From Salinadaptatus halalkaliphilus (lineage in GTDB: Archaea > Halobacteriota > Halobacteria > Halobacteriales > Natrialbaceae): a stretch of 64,000 nucleotides of DNA. Position 1 is the first letter of the stretch; each line of letters begins with the position of its first letter. Under the pieces are notes generated by a model that was not told the origin of the DNA, ran no database searches, and was given only the letters and a program-made list of their open reading frames with translations. The stretch is from positions 62,001 to 126,000 of the forward strand of contig NZ_RBZW01000016.1 in the NCBI RefSeq assembly GCF_006543045.1, in the 5' to 3' direction. The position numbers and the translations under genes are program-made. Of this stretch, positions 31,766 through 40,124 are shown piece by piece.

Positions 31766-34700
31766 TCAGGAGCTGACGGCGTCGCCGAACAACTGTGCCA
31801 GCAGTCGCCGTTGGCCGATCCGCAGATGGCGGTTGACAGTTGGTTGGGACACGTCGAGGCGGTCGGCGATCTCCTGACCGGTGCTCTCGCGGGGCCACTC
31901 GAAGAAGCCGGCGTAGAAGGCCGTCCTGAGTACCTCGAGCTGACGGTCAGTCAGTTCCTCGAACAGCGAGGAGATGAGTTCGCGTCTCGTGTGCATGGAA
32001 CGTTCGACGTGGCGGCGGCTGCGGAGTTCAACGTCGCGGTGTGTGTCCGCGAGGGCATCGATGAAGGCGCGAACGTCGGTCCCGGTCGTAACGTCGACGG
32101 TTACGATCGTCTCCTCGTCGTCGCCGACGATCGATCGCGGACTGGCGCCGTGGCGGATCAGTTGCGACGCGAGCACTTCGCCGCTGACGAGCGCCTCGAA
32201 CCGACAGCGGTCCTCGTCCTCGCTCAGCAGCCGGTAGGCCGAGACGACCACGAGTTCTTCGAGGATGGCCGTCACCGCTTGCGGGTCCACGTCGTGGGTT
32301 TCGAAGAACAGGAGCGTGTCCTCGCTCGAGTGTGTTCCGATGCCGTCGTACTCGATGCGTCCGCCCGTTTTCGTCGCGATCTGTGACAGGATATCGTTCG
32401 ACTCCGTCATCGCGAGGGTGAGTTCGATCTGTACGGCCGAGTGGAGGGCTTCCCGGGTACGCGTCACGTTGATCGCGTTCGCGATCGTCTCGCCGAGTTC
32501 GCCGAATACCTCCCGCTCGAGCTCGGCAAACGCGTCGGGTTCGGTCGCGTAGACGGTCAGTACGCCGTACGAGTACTCCGCTAACGTCAGCGGAATGCTG
32601 ATCACCGACTGGAAGCCCGCATCGAGCGCTTTTCGCCGCCAGGACTCGCCACGGATATCGTCGACGACGTTCTCGACGACGGTCGTCTGCTCGGTTCGTG
32701 CGGTCCGACACGCGGGTTCGACCGACGTCTCCGTCGCAAGCGAAACGCTATCGAGGTACTCGCCGTTTGTCCCGGCCCAGCTCTGGGGCTCGAGGGTCGA
32801 TTCGCTCGAATCGACGGTGCCGATCCAGGCGAAGCCGATCCCCGTCGCCTCGACGAGACGCTCGGGGACGGTCGAATCGATCTCGGCGCGGCTCGTCGCG
32901 CCGACGAGCGAGCCGTTGATTCGTCTGATGATCTCGGTGACCGACATCTGCCGTCGAAGGCGCTGATTCTGGGCCTCGAGTTCGGCGTCGCGTTCGCGCA
33001 ATCGCGACTCGTGCTCGAGTCGGTCGAGAGCGGCTTCGGTCGTCGCCGCCAGCGTCTCGACGAGCTGGCGGGTTTCGGCGTCGATAGCGTCGGACTCGGC
33101 GGCGACCGTGACCACTCCGTGGTTGCCGATCGGGACGACGACGGCACTCTCGACGTCGTCTTCGAAGAGCTGTGTTTGATCGCCAGCAGCGGGATCGTCG
33201 ACGACGGTCTGTGCGCCCGTGACGAAGGCATTCCAGAGGACCGAGCCGTCGCTGGCAAGTGGGGTTGTTGGCGCCTCGTGTGTGAGTCGATCGAACGCGT
33301 CGCTGTGGCCGACCGGGACGAGCTGGTTGACGTCGTCGTCGAGCCGATAGAGTGCAACGCCAGCGTCGTCGAAGAGATCGGTCGCGGTGTCGATGACCAG
33401 ATCGGCGACCGCTTCGACGGTTTCGACGCCTAGTAGCCCGCGCGCGGCTTCGTGAAGCGACTCGAGTGCTAACTCCCGGTGTTTCAGGTCGGTCACGTCC
33501 CGCAGCGCACCCTGGTAGGCGACCAGTTCGCCGTCCTCGAAGACGGGCTCGCCGACGCCGCGGACCCAGATCAGTTCCTCCGGTGTCGGTTCGATCCGTG
33601 CCTCGAGCTCGTAGATAGATTCGGTCTCGATCGCGGTCTGGAGTCGTTGGCGAACGCGCGGGCGATCGTCGGGGTGATACTTTTCGATGGCCGCGCTCAA
33701 GTCGGGCGGCGTGTCACGGGGCAGTCCGTGAATCCGATACTGCTCTTCGGTCCAGGTCGGCTGTGGCGGATCCTCGGTCAGATCCAGTTCCCAGCCGCCG
33801 ACGCCGGCCAGTTGCTCGACGCGCTCGAGAAGTTCCTGGGTCTGCTCGAGTTCGCGTTCGCGCTCCTTGCGGTCGGTAATGTTCTGGATCGAGCCCCGGA
33901 CGGCGACGACCGCATCGTCGGTCGACTGCAGGCGATCCTCGTTCGACGCTGCTACCGCGTCGCCCGTGACGATCGGCTCTCCGATCGCCCGCACCCAACG
34001 TCTGTGGCCGTCCGTGGTGGTCAGGCGTAGTTCGAGATCGTAGGGTTCGCCCTCCTCGATCGCGCGGTCGAGGGCCGTTCGGAGACGCGCCCGATCCTCG
34101 GGGTGATACAACTCGAGTGAGTCTTCGAGGGAAAAACTCGACGTTTCCGGATGGTAGCCCAGTATTCTGGCGACCTCGTCGGTTCCCTCGAGTTCGTACG
34201 GCTCCTCGCGGACGTCGAGCTCCCAGGCGCCGACGCTTGCGAGGTGCTGGGACTGCTCAAGCAGCGCCCGGGTTCGCTCGAGTTCGCGTTCGTACCGCTT
34301 GCTCTCGGAAACGTCTTCGATCGCCCCCATCACGCCGACGACCTCGCCACTCGAGTCCCGGATCGGTGCTTTCGAGATGCGGACGTCGAGTAGTGAGCCG
34401 TCTTTCGTTCGACGCTGTAGTTCGACGCCGGTGATCGTCTCACCGGCGCGAAGCCGATCGAGGAAGATGTCGAGTGACTCCTCGTCCGGCTCCGGGATCG
34501 TCGGCAGTTCGTTGCCACGTACTTCCGACTCGTCCCACCCGAAGATGCGCTCGGCTGCGGGATTCCACAGTTGGACGGTATCCTCGAGATCGACCGCGAT
34601 GAGTGCTGCCGGCGAGGCATCGATGATCGCGTCGAGCCACTCGTTGGTCTCTCGCAGCCGCTGTTCGCGGATTCGGCGATCGGTCACATCTTCCTGAAAA

Positions 34701-35932
34701 CCGACGAAATTCGTCACCGTTCCCGCGTCGTCTTCGATCGGAGCGAGATGGACTCGGTTCCAGAACTCGGTGCCGTCCGGTCGGTAGTTACGAAGCTCGA
34801 CGGCAGTTGGCTTCCCGTCCGCGACCGCCTCCTGTAGCTGCTCGACGCGGTCTGGATCCGTCCGTTCTCCCTGCAAGAATCGGCAGTTTCGTCCGATTGC
34901 GTCTTCACGGTCGTAGCCAGTGACCTCCTCGAAGGCCTCGTTCGCGTAGATGATCGGATTGTCCGGCTGGTCCGGATCGGTGATCGTCACCCCGACTGGT
35001 GCTGCCTCGAGCGCTCGATCTTTGAGTCGAAGTTCACGTTCGTACCGTTGGCGATCGAACGCGTGGCCGATCCAATTCGCCATCAGATCGACGAACGTGC
35101 GATCGGCCGTCGAAAACTCCCCCTCGCGTGGCGTTCGGTCGAGGAAACACAGCGTCCCGTAGCGCTCGTCGCCGATCTCGAGGGTCGTCCCGAGATAGCT
35201 GTTGATATCCCCCGACTCGACCGCGGGATCGTCTGTGTCTCTCTCGTCGTCGGCGTCGTGAATCCCACGGAGACCGTCGGATTCGACCGTCTCGCGACAG
35301 AACGTCTCCGAAAGTTTCGTCTCCGTTCCGTCCGGGACGACCTCGGTCCCGTGGGTGTACTCGACGACGTAACGATCGGCGTCTTCGTCGGTTCGCGAGA
35401 CGAGCCCCGCTTCCATCTCGAGTCGGTCACAGCCGAGTTCGAGCAACTGGCGTATCTGCTCGTCCGTGCTCGCGTTTGTCTCGGCGGTAATTCGATACAG
35501 CGCGTCTCGGTACTGTTCGTGTTCCGCGATGCGCTGACTGCAGCGATGGAACGCACTCGTCAGGTCGTCGATTGCGGCCGAGAGTTCGCCGAGTTCGTCG
35601 TCTCGGTCGAGTTCGATGTTGATTTCGTCGGTCCGTATCTCCGTCGGATGCGTCGTTCCCTCGAGTCGATCGACGACGGTTCGGACGTCGGTTGCGAGAC
35701 GTTCGATCGCGTTCGATCGATCGGCGCTGCCACCGACTGCGAGCCCGAGGACGACCGATTCGACAGCCTGCTCTATGTACAGCCCCAGAAGCACCGTCCC
35801 GACGAACAGCAGTGACCCGGCGACGATAGCGTTGATCCCGGACATTCGGGACCGATACCACGGTAGCGCCAGCTGGGGGTCTCGTGCCGGTGACGCTCCG
35901 TCATCGTGTGACGACCCTCGGCTGAAAGGCAT
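31766..35932 (-). CDS. Membrane-anchored LOV/PAS/GAF regulator with Bat-type HTH
   Basis: 1388 residues. One membrane helix (about 31-53), a HAMP-like linker (60-130), GAF (145-295), a LOV-type PAS (305-420) with GRNCRFLQG (Cys350) and ELRNYRPDGTEFWNRVHLA plus FVGFQEDVT, three more PAS domains (425-545, 555-690, 695-815), GAF (825-965), a Bat-type GAF (985-1140), and a C-terminal HTH of the bacterio-opsin-activator class (LTDRQLEVLRTAFYAGFFEW ... TGQEIADRLDVSQPTVNRHL, about 1315-1375). All flavin-contact residues of a LOV photosensor are present, so blue-light input to a DNA-binding output is likely. Being tethered to the membrane is unusual for Bat-type proteins. It stands where E3 often follows E2. 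Confidence 0.9.
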   Translation of the reverse strand: MPFSRGSSHDDGASPARDPQLALPWYRSRMSGINAIVAGSLLFVGTVLLGLYIEQAVESVVLGLAVGGSADRSNAIERLATDVRTVVDRLEGTTHPTEIRTDEINIELDRDDELGELSAAIDDLTSAFHRCSQRIAEHEQYRDALYRITAETNASTDEQIRQLLELGCDRLEMEAGLVSRTDEDADRYVVEYTHGTEVVPDGTETKLSETFCRETVESDGLRGIHDADDERDTDDPAVESGDINSYLGTTLEIGDERYGTLCFLDRTPREGEFSTADRTFVDLMANWIGHAFDRQRYERELRLKDRALEAAPVGVTITDPDQPDNPIIYANEAFEEVTGYDREDAIGRNCRFLQGERTDPDRVEQLQEAVADGKPTAVELRNYRPDGTEFWNRVHLAPIEDDAGTVTNFVGFQEDVTDRRIREQRLRETNEWLDAIIDASPAALIAVDLEDTVQLWNPAAERIFGWDESEVRGNELPTIPEPDEESLDIFLDRLRAGETITGVELQRRTKDGSLLDVRISKAPIRDSSGEVVGVMGAIEDVSESKRYERELERTRALLEQSQHLASVGAWELDVREEPYELEGTDEVARILGYHPETSSFSLEDSLELYHPEDRARLRTALDRAIEEGEPYDLELRLTTTDGHRRWVRAIGEPIVTGDAVAASNEDRLQSTDDAVVAVRGSIQNITDRKERERELEQTQELLERVEQLAGVGGWELDLTEDPPQPTWTEEQYRIHGLPRDTPPDLSAAIEKYHPDDRPRVRQRLQTAIETESIYELEARIEPTPEELIWVRGVGEPVFEDGELVAYQGALRDVTDLKHRELALESLHEAARGLLGVETVEAVADLVIDTATDLFDDAGVALYRLDDDVNQLVPVGHSDAFDRLTHEAPTTPLASDGSVLWNAFVTGAQTVVDDPAAGDQTQLFEDDVESAVVVPIGNHGVVTVAAESDAIDAETRQLVETLAATTEAALDRLEHESRLRERDAELEAQNQRLRRQMSVTEIIRRINGSLVGATSRAEIDSTVPERLVEATGIGFAWIGTVDSSESTLEPQSWAGTNGEYLDSVSLATETSVEPACRTARTEQTTVVENVVDDIRGESWRRKALDAGFQSVISIPLTLAEYSYGVLTVYATEPDAFAELEREVFGELGETIANAINVTRTREALHSAVQIELTLAMTESNDILSQIATKTGGRIEYDGIGTHSSEDTLLFFETHDVDPQAVTAILEELVVVSAYRLLSEDEDRCRFEALVSGEVLASQLIRHGASPRSIVGDDEETIVTVDVTTGTDVRAFIDALADTHRDVELRSRRHVERSMHTRRELISSLFEELTDRQLEVLRTAFYAGFFEWPRESTGQEIADRLDVSQPTVNRHLRIGQRRLLAQLFGDAVSS

Positions 35933-36014: not shown

Positions 36015-37649
36015 TCAATCGAGCAACAGCAACTCGGGATGCTCGAGGTACTCCATCACGGTGTTCGTAAAGCGCGCGCCGACGGCGCCGTCGATCAGCC
36101 GGTGGTCGAACGACAGCGACAGCGTCAGCACGGAGCGTGGTTCGATCGATTCCGCGCCGTCGTCGGTGACGACGCGGGGTTTGCGCTTGATCTCGCCGAT
36201 GGCGAGAATCCCCGATTCGGGGTAGTTCAGGATCGGCGTCGCGTACTCGCCGCCGATGCCGCCGACGTTGGTGATCGTAAACGTCGAGCCCTGCAACTCG
36301 TCGGGGCCGATCGTTCGATCGCGCGCTTTCTCGACGAGTTCGTTCGTCTCGGAGGCCAACTGGAGCAACCCCTTCTTGTCGGCGTCCTCGAGGACCGGCA
36401 CCATCAGGCCGACGTCGGTCGCGGTCGCGACGCCGATGTTGTAGTAGTCGCGGTAGACGATTTCCTCCGCGTCCTCGTCGATGACCGCGTTCATCTCGGG
36501 GTACTCCTGTAAGGCCGCGACGACGGCTTTCGTGACGAACGGCATGTAGGTCAGCCGAATGCCCCGGTCCTCGGCACGCGGGGCGAGTCGGTCTCGCGTC
36601 TCGACCAGCGCCGTCACGTCGACCTCGTCGTGGTGGGTGACGTGGGGGGCGCTGTACGTCGACTCGACCATCGCCTCGGCGATTCGCTTGCGGACGCCGC
36701 CGAAGGGTTCGCGGCGCTCGCGCTCGCCGGGTTCGAACGCGGCGTACTCGCGCTCGCCGACGGGGTCCCCGGCCTCGAGTGCCTCGCGATCCGCATCTTG
36801 GGCCCGGCGTTGGGCCTCGGCGTACTCCTGGACTGCCTCGGGCGTGACGAACGCCTCGCCGTCGCGGTGGTCGACTGCGGGGACGGCGTCGATGTCGACC
36901 CCCGCCTCGTCGGCGAGTCGTCGGGTCGCCGGCGCGGCCAGCGTCCGCTCGCGATCCGCCGACTCGAGGTCGCCTGCCGCCGGCGCGGTCGACGCACCAG
37001 CATCGGCGCTCGAGGTCGCCGGATCGCTCGCGGCGACGTCCGGCTCGTCGGCGTCGGCAGACGCGTTACCCGCAGTGGCAGCCGTGTCGCTCCCGGCGGA
37101 TTCGGAGTGAGTCGGCTGCGAGTCGGTTGTCTGTGAGTCGGTGCCCGTCGCAGCCCTGACATCGGCCGTCGTGATCCGACCGCCGGGGCCGCTGCCCTCG
37201 AGCGTCGCGAGGTCGATCCCCGCCTCGCGGGCCAGTTTGCGGACTCGCGGCGGTGCGAAGACGCGGTCCTGGGGGGTATCGATCGTCTCGGTCTCGGCGC
37301 CGGTTGCGCCGGGATCACCCGCTGACTCGCTCTCGCCCTCGGTTGTGGTCAGGTCGGCCGCCTCGCTCGAGTCGGTGTTTTCGATATCGCCGGTTTCGGC
37401 GGGCGCCTCGCCCTTGAGCGAGAAGGTAACGAACACCTCCCCGACGGGGATGACGTCGCCCTCGTCATAGTGTAGTGTTTCGACGGTACCGTCGACGGGC
37501 GAGGGGATGTCGACCAGCGCCTTGTCGGTCTCGATCTCGGCGATCGGCTGATCCTCTTCGACGGTGTCGCCTTCAGCGACGAGCCACGAGACCAGTTCGC
37601 CCTCGGCGACGCCCTCGCCGACGTCGGGCAGTTCGAACTCACGAACCAT
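36015..37649 (-). CDS. pdhC: 2-oxoacid dehydrogenase E2 (dihydrolipoamide acyltransferase)
   Basis: 544 residues. Lipoyl domain (1-80) with the lipoyl-lysine in ETDKALVD; a Ser/Thr/Ala/Asp-rich linker; a peripheral-subunit-binding domain (PPRVRKLAREAGIDLATLEG, about 130-170); a second linker; a second, diverged binding-like domain (PATRRLADEAGVDIDAV, about 238-280); and the catalytic core with DHRLIDG near residue 517. Transfers acyl groups to CoA. Starts one base after the E1beta stop codon. Two E1/E3-binding domains are more than the usual one. Substrate (pyruvate or branched-chain) cannot be fixed; genetic studies in haloarchaea link similar operons to several 2-oxoacids. Confidence 0.93.
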   Translation of the reverse strand: MVREFELPDVGEGVAEGELVSWLVAEGDTVEEDQPIAEIETDKALVDIPSPVDGTVETLHYDEGDVIPVGEVFVTFSLKGEAPAETGDIENTDSSEAADLTTTEGESESAGDPGATGAETETIDTPQDRVFAPPRVRKLAREAGIDLATLEGSGPGGRITTADVRAATGTDSQTTDSQPTHSESAGSDTAATAGNASADADEPDVAASDPATSSADAGASTAPAAGDLESADRERTLAAPATRRLADEAGVDIDAVPAVDHRDGEAFVTPEAVQEYAEAQRRAQDADREALEAGDPVGEREYAAFEPGERERREPFGGVRKRIAEAMVESTYSAPHVTHHDEVDVTALVETRDRLAPRAEDRGIRLTYMPFVTKAVVAALQEYPEMNAVIDEDAEEIVYRDYYNIGVATATDVGLMVPVLEDADKKGLLQLASETNELVEKARDRTIGPDELQGSTFTITNVGGIGGEYATPILNYPESGILAIGEIKRKPRVVTDDGAESIEPRSVLTLSLSFDHRLIDGAVGARFTNTVMEYLEHPELLLLD

Positions 37650-37650
37650 T

Positions 37651-38661
37651 CTAGAACCCCGCAGCGCGCCGAATGCCGTCCTCGATGCGGGCGGCTTCCG
37701 GCAGGTAGTAGTCTTCGAGCGCGTACAGCGGGAACGGCGTGTCGAAGCCGGTGATGCGCTCGATCGGTGCCTCCTGGTAGAGCAGCGCCTCCTCCTGGAT
37801 CGTCGCGGTGATTTCGCCCGCGAGCCCGCCCGTCTTGGGGGCTTCGTGGACGACCGCGGCGCGGCCGGTCTTCTTGAAGGAGTCGAGGATGGTGTCGTCG
37901 TCCAGCGGCGAGAGCGTCCGCAGGTCGACCACCTCGACGTCGACCTCGTCCGCGAGATTGTCGGCGGCCTCGAGCGTCGGCCGGGTCATCGCGCCCCACG
38001 TGAAGACGGAGACGTCGCTGCCCTCGCGGCGAACGGCGGCCTCGCCGAGAGGGACCTCGTAGGAGTCGACCGGGACGTCCTCGCGAAACGCCCGGTAGAT
38101 GAGTTTCGGCTCGAGGAAGAGCACGGGATCCGGGTCTCGAATCGCACTCGTCAACAAGCCCTTCGTGTCGGCGGGCGTCGAGGGGACGACGACCTTGAGG
38201 CCGGGCTGGTGGACGAACATCGCCTCGGTCGACTCGGAGTGGTGTTCGGGCGCGCGGATACCGCCGCCGTAGGGTGCGCGGACCACCAGTGGACACGTAA
38301 ATCGTCCTCGAGAGCGCGTTCGCAGGCGTGCGGCGTGGGAGACGATCTGGTCGAATGCGGGGTAGATAAAGCCCATAAACTGCATCTCGGCGACGGGACG
38401 CAGCCCGTAGGCGGCCATGCCGATGGCCGTGCCGACGATTCCGGACTCCGCGAGTGGAGTATCGATGACTCTCTCCTCGCCGAACTGATCGTAAAGGCCT
38501 TCCGTCGCGCGAAAGACGCCGCCGTTCTTGCCGACGTCTTCACCCATGACGAGGACATCCTCGTCGCGTTCCATCTCGGTTCGAAGCCCGTCCTGAACCG
38601 CCTGGACCAGGGTCAGGCTCTCGGTCTCTCGGTCGGTCTGCGGTTCCGTTTCGGTAGCCAT
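37651..38661 (-). CDS. pdhB: 2-oxoacid dehydrogenase E1 beta subunit
   Basis: 336 residues from the ATG at 38661; the longer open reading to 38991 overlaps E1alpha and is rejected. Blocks VMGEDVGKNGGVFRATEGL, DTPLAESGIVGTAIGMA, RAPYGGGIRAPEHHSES and the C-terminal transketolase domain (TWGAMTRPTLEAAD) are typical. Pairs with the E1alpha subunit to decarboxylate the 2-oxoacid on thiamine diphosphate. Two bases separate it from E1alpha's stop region, so it is in one operon. Confidence 0.95.
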   Translation of the reverse strand: MATETEPQTDRETESLTLVQAVQDGLRTEMERDEDVLVMGEDVGKNGGVFRATEGLYDQFGEERVIDTPLAESGIVGTAIGMAAYGLRPVAEMQFMGFIYPAFDQIVSHAARLRTRSRGRFTCPLVVRAPYGGGIRAPEHHSESTEAMFVHQPGLKVVVPSTPADTKGLLTSAIRDPDPVLFLEPKLIYRAFREDVPVDSYEVPLGEAAVRREGSDVSVFTWGAMTRPTLEAADNLADEVDVEVVDLRTLSPLDDDTILDSFKKTGRAAVVHEAPKTGGLAGEITATIQEEALLYQEAPIERITGFDTPFPLYALEDYYLPEAARIEDGIRRAAGF

Positions 38662-38665
38662 GGTA

Positions 38666-39793
38666 TCACTCCAGGAGTTCGTCGTCGCCGTGGTCGTCGC
38701 GAATCGATTCGAGATACTCGAGTTGGCGCCGTAATCGTTTGGGCATCCCCTCGTAGACGTGAGCGAAGATTTCCTCGGGATCGGGCCGGCGAACCGACTC
38801 GACGGCCTCGATGGCGTCGGCGACGTCCGCTTCGACGCTGGATTCGATCGCGTCGACGCGCTCGTCGTCGAGGATGCCTTGCGAGCGCAGGTAGGTTTCG
38901 AGGCGCGGGATCGGATCTTTTTCCTTCCAGTTTTCGACCTCGTCGTCCTCCCGGTAGACGGAGGGATCGTCGGCCGTCGTATGGGCGCCAAAGCGGTACT
39001 GGACCGCCTCGATCAGCGTCGGTCGGGTGGCGCGGCCGGGTGCGTCGTCCACGAAATCGTCGGGGTCTTTGGCCTTCTCGACGGCCTCGCGGGTGACCTT
39101 GTAGACCGCGAGCGGGTCCATGCCGTCAACCTGGACGCCCTCAAAGCCGTAGGCTTCGGCTTTCTGGGCCAACGTCTCGCTCGCACTCTGGCGCTCGCGC
39201 GGGACCGAGATGGCCCACTGGTTGTTGTTACAGAAGAAGACCGTCGGGGTGTCGAAGACCCCGGCGAAGTTCAGCCCCTCGTGGAAGTCGCCTTCCGAGG
39301 TCGCGCCGTCGCCGAAGTAACAGACGAATGCCTTCCGCTCGCCCTTCAGTTTCGACGCCCACGCCGCGCCCGTCGCGTGGGGAATCTGGGTCGCGATCGG
39401 CACCGCGACCGAGAACATGTTGATGTCCTTGGGAATCGCATTGCCTTGCTCGTGGCCCATCCAGTACAGCAGTGTTCGCTCTAAGCCCATCCCGCGAACC
39501 AGGCCGACGGCGTGTTCGCGGTAGCTGGGAAACACCCAGTCCTCGGTGTCCATCGCGTGGGCACTGGCGACCTGGGCGGCCTCCTGTCCTGATAATGGGG
39601 GGTAGGTTCCCATTCGTCCCTGGCGCTGCAGGCTCACCGCGCGTTCGTCGAAGTGGCGGGCCAGGCGCATCTGCTCGTAGATCTCGAGGAGTTCGTCGTC
39701 GGAGAGATCGGGCACGTCGGCACCCTCGCGCACCCGCCCCGTCTCGTCGAGGATCTGTACTCGTCGCGTCGGATCGCGCTGTAACGTACTCAC
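38666..39793 (-). CDS. pdhA: 2-oxoacid dehydrogenase E1 alpha subunit
   Basis: 375 residues from the GTG at 39793, selected by GGAGG eight bases upstream; an ATG at 39823 is the alternative. The thiamine-diphosphate motif [17 protein letters not shown] (near 160-176) followed by [10 protein letters not shown] and the phosphorylation-loop-like [14 protein letters not shown] are seen. First gene of the E1alpha-E1beta-E2 operon; E3 is not in the window. Confidence 0.95.
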
Positions 39794-40124
39794 GGGGAAC
39801 CCCTCCAGTACATACCCGACCAATGTATCGCTCAGGATAAAGGATTTTCCCTAAATAGCTTACTATCGGTGAGATTCTTACCACACAGAGCCACGTATTC
39901 CGGACAACAGTGGATAATTATGGACAGATGTGGGCGAAGACAGTGTCGTCGAGACGGTCGAGAGGTGTACTGACGTGCCACGCGGCGATGAGCGAATCGA
40001 TGTTTCCGACCCGTACGATGCGATGTGGGACGAGGCGTCGCCTCATACGGATTGCTGTAACGATTTACCGGCGAAACCGCAGACGGGTCGCGGTTTCGGC
40101 GGTAACGACTTACAGTAAACCGTA
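39794..40124. other. Intergenic region between pdhA and lipA
   Basis: About 330 bp. It holds the pdhA promoter (TTTATCC about 45 bp before the start, reverse strand) and palindromic element B at its far end. No gene seen. Confidence 0.6.

Follow-up and report, generated by a model that had tools for sequence, protein, structure and literature searches.

A haloarchaeal Bat-type regulator combining a LOV domain with a predicted membrane anchor

A light sensor and a DNA-binding domain carried on one membrane-anchored chain raise the question of how a signal could reach promoters: would such a protein act from the membrane, or would its DNA-binding end first have to be released? A chain of this kind is encoded in a 64,000-nucleotide stretch of Salinadaptatus halalkaliphilus DNA (contig NZ_RBZW01000016.1, positions 62,001 to 126,000; hereafter the window), to which coordinates given without a prefix refer. 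The gene (31766..35932, minus strand) is complete, with an ATG start, no internal stop and Pfam domains, and specifies 1388 amino acids. An earlier note, made from the DNA letters alone, had described its product as a membrane-tethered LOV photosensor with a Bat-type DNA-binding end that may require proteolysis or act on nearby DNA. We consider it probable that the protein is a haloarchaeal transmembrane Bat (BAT-HTH_10) regulator that acts from the membrane and for which light is one input among several.

DNA-binding end, LOV domain and membrane anchor

Pfam searches and hydropathy gave the domain order membrane anchor, HAMP-like linker, GAF, LOV, three PAS, two GAF, BAT and HTH_10, all encoded on the minus strand. 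At the C-terminus the BAT domain (GAF and HTH_10 associated; residues 1169-1319, 31976..32428; PF15915, E=2.8e-38, 131.6 bits) is followed by the HTH_10 DNA-binding domain (residues 1327-1378, 31799..31954; PF04967, E=6.9e-17, 61.4 bits). Both exceed their Pfam cut-offs, which marks a Bat-type regulator and bears out the C-terminus proposed in the earlier note. The chain also joins a membrane segment to this DNA-binding domain, the sequence signature of a transmembrane transcription regulator. Pfam detected no Response_reg match, that is, no N-terminal REC domain; the membrane segment, HAMP-like linker and a GAF domain are found there instead. On this domain content the regulator is a relative of Bat, not Bat itself.

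The LOV domain occupies residues 305-428 (34649..35020), as judged from profiles, matches to solved structures and a residue check. It matched the solved LOV proteins 6hmj (E=2e-37) and Brucella LOV-HK 6ph3 (E=7e-35), and the Pfam LOV/PAS_9 match covers residues 312-418. A YtvA-family blue-light profile matched with E=6.9e-48, yet under the full-length cut-off of that equivalog model. The adduct cysteine C350 lies in GRNCRFLQG, as had been stated before, and N331, Q354, N382, N392 and Q413 (protein numbering) are also in place; the flavin-contacting Asn and Gln residues align with those of Brucella LOV-HK. Structure prediction of the LOV domain alone reached a predicted local distance difference test score (pLDDT) of 60.8, and the 55 N-terminal residues of this model scored below 50. 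The matches of this model in the PDB were LOV domains at template modelling scores near 0.45, so that it adds little to the sequence evidence. Judged by sequence, the regulator contains a complete canonical LOV domain that is predicted to bind flavin.

The N-terminus carries a first membrane segment at residues 35-53 (AIVAGSLLFVGTVLLGLYI; 35774..35830; hydropathy 2.26 over 19 residues) and a second, shorter hydrophobic stretch at residues 56-70 (AVESVVLGLAVGGSA; 35723..35767; hydropathy 1.57 over 15 residues). The latter aligns with the GLAA-type second segment of the orthologues and is probably the second arm of a hairpin anchor. A divergent HAMP-like linker follows at residues of about 72-128 (RDDELGELSAAIDDLTSAF; 35549..35719); it scored 15.1 bits (E=0.029), below the Pfam cut-off of 25, and three orthologues scored 29.2, 40.1 and 34.7 bits. 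Most members of the subfamily described below have an excess of Arg and Lys on the N-side of the first segment (7 to 2 in locus L041, 9 to 1 in L044; the regulator itself has 3 to 3), and only one clear membrane segment is visible in some of them. Since these charges put the N-terminus on the inside and the HTH has to be there too, a chain that crosses twice is the reading that fits; a single pass would place the HTH outside the cell. The anchor is therefore likely to be a two-segment hairpin leading into a HAMP-like linker rather than a plain single helix, so that the membrane helix reported in the earlier note stands and its being single does not. With no notable domain outside, this anchor is more likely to position the protein or to sense the state of the membrane than to bind a ligand from outside.

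The reading frame offers start codons at residues 1, 30 and 47 (GTG, within the membrane segment), and the next ones at residues 163 (TTG) and 173 (ATG). Since none lies between 47 and 163, this gene could hardly yield a soluble protein whose first GAF domain is intact. Translation starting after the helix, an alternative raised in the earlier note, is very unlikely given these positions and was rejected.

Strong relatives were found in 31 of 196 genomes searched in an order-level sample, and their loci were taken with flanks. By hydropathy, an N-terminal membrane segment is present in 29 of the 30 complete members of this anchored Bat subfamily (a relative from genome G175 is without it), and in relatives a HAMP-like linker comes after the segment. 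A tree of the C-terminal half placed the anchored members in one clade (100/100), separate from the REC-type Bats. When nearer soluble Bats were added, the soluble proteins of G008, and of G006 with G072 and G113, were nested inside the anchored clade; the last three keep a HAMP-like start with no hydrophobic segment ahead of it. Most simply, these nested proteins have lost the anchor. Seven other Bat loci were read in the window's genome, all without an N-terminal membrane segment. As far as these trees tell, the anchor is ancestral to a subfamily of haloarchaeal Bats in which LOV is absent from most members. The earlier note had thought a membrane-fixed LOV regulator unusual: we indeed found no description of the combination in the open-access literature, but the anchor is not peculiar to this protein.

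Light as a proposed input among several

Within the order sample the LOV cysteine occurs only in the window and in genomes G146, G112, G141 and G078; apart from that of G115, described below, the other anchored Bats have ordinary PAS domains. G078, which lies outside the family of the window's genome, carries GRDCRFLQG. A denser search of 125 genomes of that family recovered ten LOV-bearing anchored Bats, every one of them with a membrane segment and with the cysteine; all six checked residues are kept in nine, and the tenth has Q413H. One LOV-bearing anchored Bat (G203:C1:2288005-2289162, L197) lies in a 711-amino-acid frame and may be frameshifted or truncated. LOV-like matches as such occur in nearly all haloarchaeal genomes, and among the best-matching 30 LOV loci a membrane segment is present only in anchored Bats; in that scan the G078 member fell slightly under the cut-off (hydropathy 1.79), its segment having been found in the orthologue scan. 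In a comparison with LOV domains from other haloarchaeal proteins, those of five anchored Bats form a modestly supported cluster (89/77). Going by this distribution, LOV is an optional sensor within the anchored Bat subfamily. The anchored Bat of G115 (L069, frame residues 303-416) has a LOV-like domain with Tyr at the position of the adduct cysteine, a natural Cys-less control.

Because most anchored members have no LOV domain, light would be at most one of several inputs. The further sensor domains of the regulator begin with a GAF domain ahead of LOV (residues 157-291, 35060..35464; best stretch of PF01590). Behind LOV come a PAS domain without the LOV cysteine (residues 433-541, 34310..34636; PF00989), a PAS_3 domain with its core at residues 585-654 (33971..34180; best of four PF08447 stretches, E=9.8e-48 for the whole protein) and a second PAS_3 domain at residues of about 715-815 (33488..33790; PF08447). 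The second GAF domain covers residues of about 832-975 (33008..33439; PF13185, three stretches); its limits and those of the second PAS_3 domain are approximate and were read from the sequence. The third GAF domain spans residues 1013-1154 (32471..32896; best stretch of PF13185, E=1.8e-34). These three GAF and three PAS domains, the HAMP-like linker and the hydrophobic stretch at 56-70 were absent from the earlier note, whose light-regulated factor keeps its LOV residues and would share control with the other sensors.

The strongest alternative is that the LOV domain binds flavin but mainly senses redox or oxygen, with light incidental, a role that has been put forward for Bat LOV domains lacking the cysteine. 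In a LOV-like domain of Bat that has Pro in place of Cys, flavin is bound and reduction elicits a response (PMC4682037), and both the Tyr of the G115 member and the many anchored Bats without LOV would fit such a role. However, redox sensing alone would not need the adduct cysteine and pocket residues that the LOV-bearing members of the family keep, the cysteine in ten of ten, and we regard this alternative as unlikely.

Neighbouring genes and the question of release

The usual neighbours of the orthologues are a divergently oriented gene encoding a REC-like/PAS protein (about 255 amino acids) and, downstream, a CPBP intramembrane protease gene together with hjc, beyond which lies an adenosylhomocysteinase-like gene. 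Neighbours were clustered with codon scoring, and some genes were still missed, among them the REC-like/PAS gene of G100. Every one of the 22 genomes with a REC-like/PAS match of at least 97 bits falls among the 31, of 196, that have an anchored Bat (hypergeometric 3e-22, relatedness ignored). The gene (L041 9738-10517 and equivalents) adjoins the regulator in all genomes but the window's own, where it lies about 80 kb away (G000:C21:177831-178571), and one in which a contig edge intervenes. The REC-like/PAS protein is likely to be an uncharacterised partner of the regulator, as its gene distribution suggests. In L041, L043, L046 and L055 the intergenic region between regulator and divergent gene measures 600-700 bases, and several relatives share a conserved promoter-like stretch directly upstream of the regulator (AACCGCGCGTATCATTG). 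In seven orthologue loci (for example L044 11165-11422 and L119 15285-15533), a stand-alone HalOD1 mini-protein (about 85-104 amino acids) is encoded next to the regulator or next to the REC-like/PAS gene; in the window's genome a HalOD1 gene lies beside the REC-like/PAS gene, at about 178 kb.

The CPBP protease bears on release, since the regulator might be inactive while tethered and be freed by intramembrane proteolysis through such an enzyme. The protease is Rce1-like (E=1.1e-18) with the motifs EEFLFR, FALVH and HAVLN, and in 17 of 32 loci its gene comes after that of the regulator in the same orientation. L053 and L064 retain the pair although the remaining neighbourhood differs, and the window's genome has an orthologue (58%) about 70 kb from the regulator gene. 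Genome-wide, however, the protease occurs independently of the regulator: each of the 30 genomes sampled from the family has it, including ten that lack the regulator, and no close orthologue was seen in 11 more distant regulator-bearing genomes. Its steady neighbour is hjc, with which it forms a recurrent pair (L041 3212-4638; G000:C21:167642-168397 in the window's genome). With the protease so distributed and hjc its constant companion, the linkage to the regulator is explained by a shared ancestral locus. Proteolytic release through the adjoining protease, attractive from synteny, was demoted by this genome-wide count, and we hold it to be improbable. Nothing specific supports the need for proteolysis that the earlier note had entertained. 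Regulators that work uncleaved from the membrane are common and have been described in archaea (PMC10269533, PMC6396743), and no protease dedicated to the present one emerged; for both reasons we prefer this mode of action.

In the window's genome the regulator occupies 93.8-97.9 kb of a contig that carries the protease and hjc at about 167-168 kb; judged by gene order, the regulator has here moved away from the ancestral-type locus. At 36015-39823 of the window, on the same strand, lie genes that read, by sequence-based annotation, as pyruvate dehydrogenase E1 alpha, E1 beta and E2. The stop of E2 and the ATG of the regulator are 82 bases apart, and no E3 gene follows. A conserved operon with pyruvate dehydrogenase was rejected, as no orthologue locus read has these genes beside the regulator; the position after E2 is local, being shared by none of them.

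A hydrophobic N-terminus that fails to cross the membrane in vivo, leaving an ordinary soluble or peripheral LOV-Bat regulator, would fit the short second segment, the anchorless G175 relative and the soluble derivatives with a HAMP-like start within the clade, but is the least likely of the alternatives, given a segment that stays hydrophobic despite sequence drift in nearly all members, ahead of a HAMP-like linker, and a reading frame that offers no start behind it until residue 163.

Proposed mechanism and comparison with known systems

In the mechanism that we favour, a short N-terminal membrane hairpin without a sizeable outside domain would anchor the protein, and the HAMP-like linker and the GAF/PAS chain would lie in the cytoplasm, ending in the DNA-binding HTH. 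Within LOV, blue light would generate a flavin-Cys350 adduct; the resulting change would travel along the PAS/GAF chain, presumably via helix packing or dimer state, and control DNA binding by the BAT-HTH end. Further inputs may come from the other domains and from the membrane, promoters would be reached from the membrane with no cleavage required, and the separate REC-like/PAS protein would be a likely partner.

Several points weigh against this proposal. Six retained residues are no proof of a photocycle, and the LOV domain could serve as a redox sensor. The LOV position is patchy within the subfamily and decays elsewhere, as in the Tyr-for-Cys member of G115. The HAMP match of the regulator itself is below the cut-off, the topology is based on hydropathy and charges with a short second segment, and the AlphaFold model of the N-terminus is poor (pLDDT 47.8). 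Finally, the regulator sits beside pyruvate dehydrogenase genes, away from its usual neighbours, and the neighbourhood evidence applies to it only indirectly.

It is an open question by what route regulators bound to the membrane get to their DNA (PMC10269533). A natural membrane-anchored, light-switchable regulator would allow a timed signal with which to tell action from the membrane from action after release. The subfamily also provides natural controls: anchored members with LOV, members without it, a member that has lost the LOV cysteine, and soluble derivatives. Tentatively, this could be the first light-gated transcription regulator to function without leaving the membrane, with LOV and membrane/HAMP inputs in one chain and a separate REC-like/PAS partner, light and membrane state jointly controlling genes.

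LOV-Bat proteins and membrane-bound regulators are each already known, and the novelty would lie in their combination in one chain: in the open-access literature we found no published membrane-anchored LOV protein with a Bat-type (HTH_10) end. A 2014 survey gave the formula (RR/GAF/PAS)+LOV+nPAS+kGAF+HTH for the LOV-HTH proteins of Halobacteria (PMC4844311). The GAF+LOV+PAS+GAF+HTH order of the regulator fits this formula, with LOV followed by PAS/GAF and a C-terminal HTH. In contrast to those proteins, the regulator has a membrane segment and a HAMP-like linker ahead of the first GAF; the survey describes neither for its LOV-HTH proteins, and the word 'transmembrane' is absent from its main text. 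Bat, the bacterio-opsin activator, is a REC-PAS-GAF-BAT-HTH_10 protein (PMC5847659, PMC4682037) and shares with the regulator the BAT and HTH_10 output and PAS and GAF inputs. Bat has an N-terminal divergent REC and a LOV-like PAS without the cysteine; in the regulator the place of REC is taken by the membrane segment with its HAMP-like linker, and the LOV cysteine is present.

One-component regulators that are bound to the membrane and act from it have been documented in archaea as well as bacteria (PMC10269533, PMC6396743). Like the bacterial ToxR/CadC type and ArnR of Sulfolobus, the regulator combines a DNA-binding domain and a membrane segment in one chain. The studied ones answer outside signals or nutrient state, unlike this regulator with its predicted light sensor, and the main text of these two papers mentions no light sensor, Bat or HTH_10.

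The LOV-HTH one-component regulator EL222 resembles the present protein in coupling a light-sensing LOV domain to a DNA-binding domain. EL222 is small and soluble and has a LuxR-type HTH. The regulator differs in its HTH_10 and in the some 900 residues of other sensor domains between LOV and HTH.

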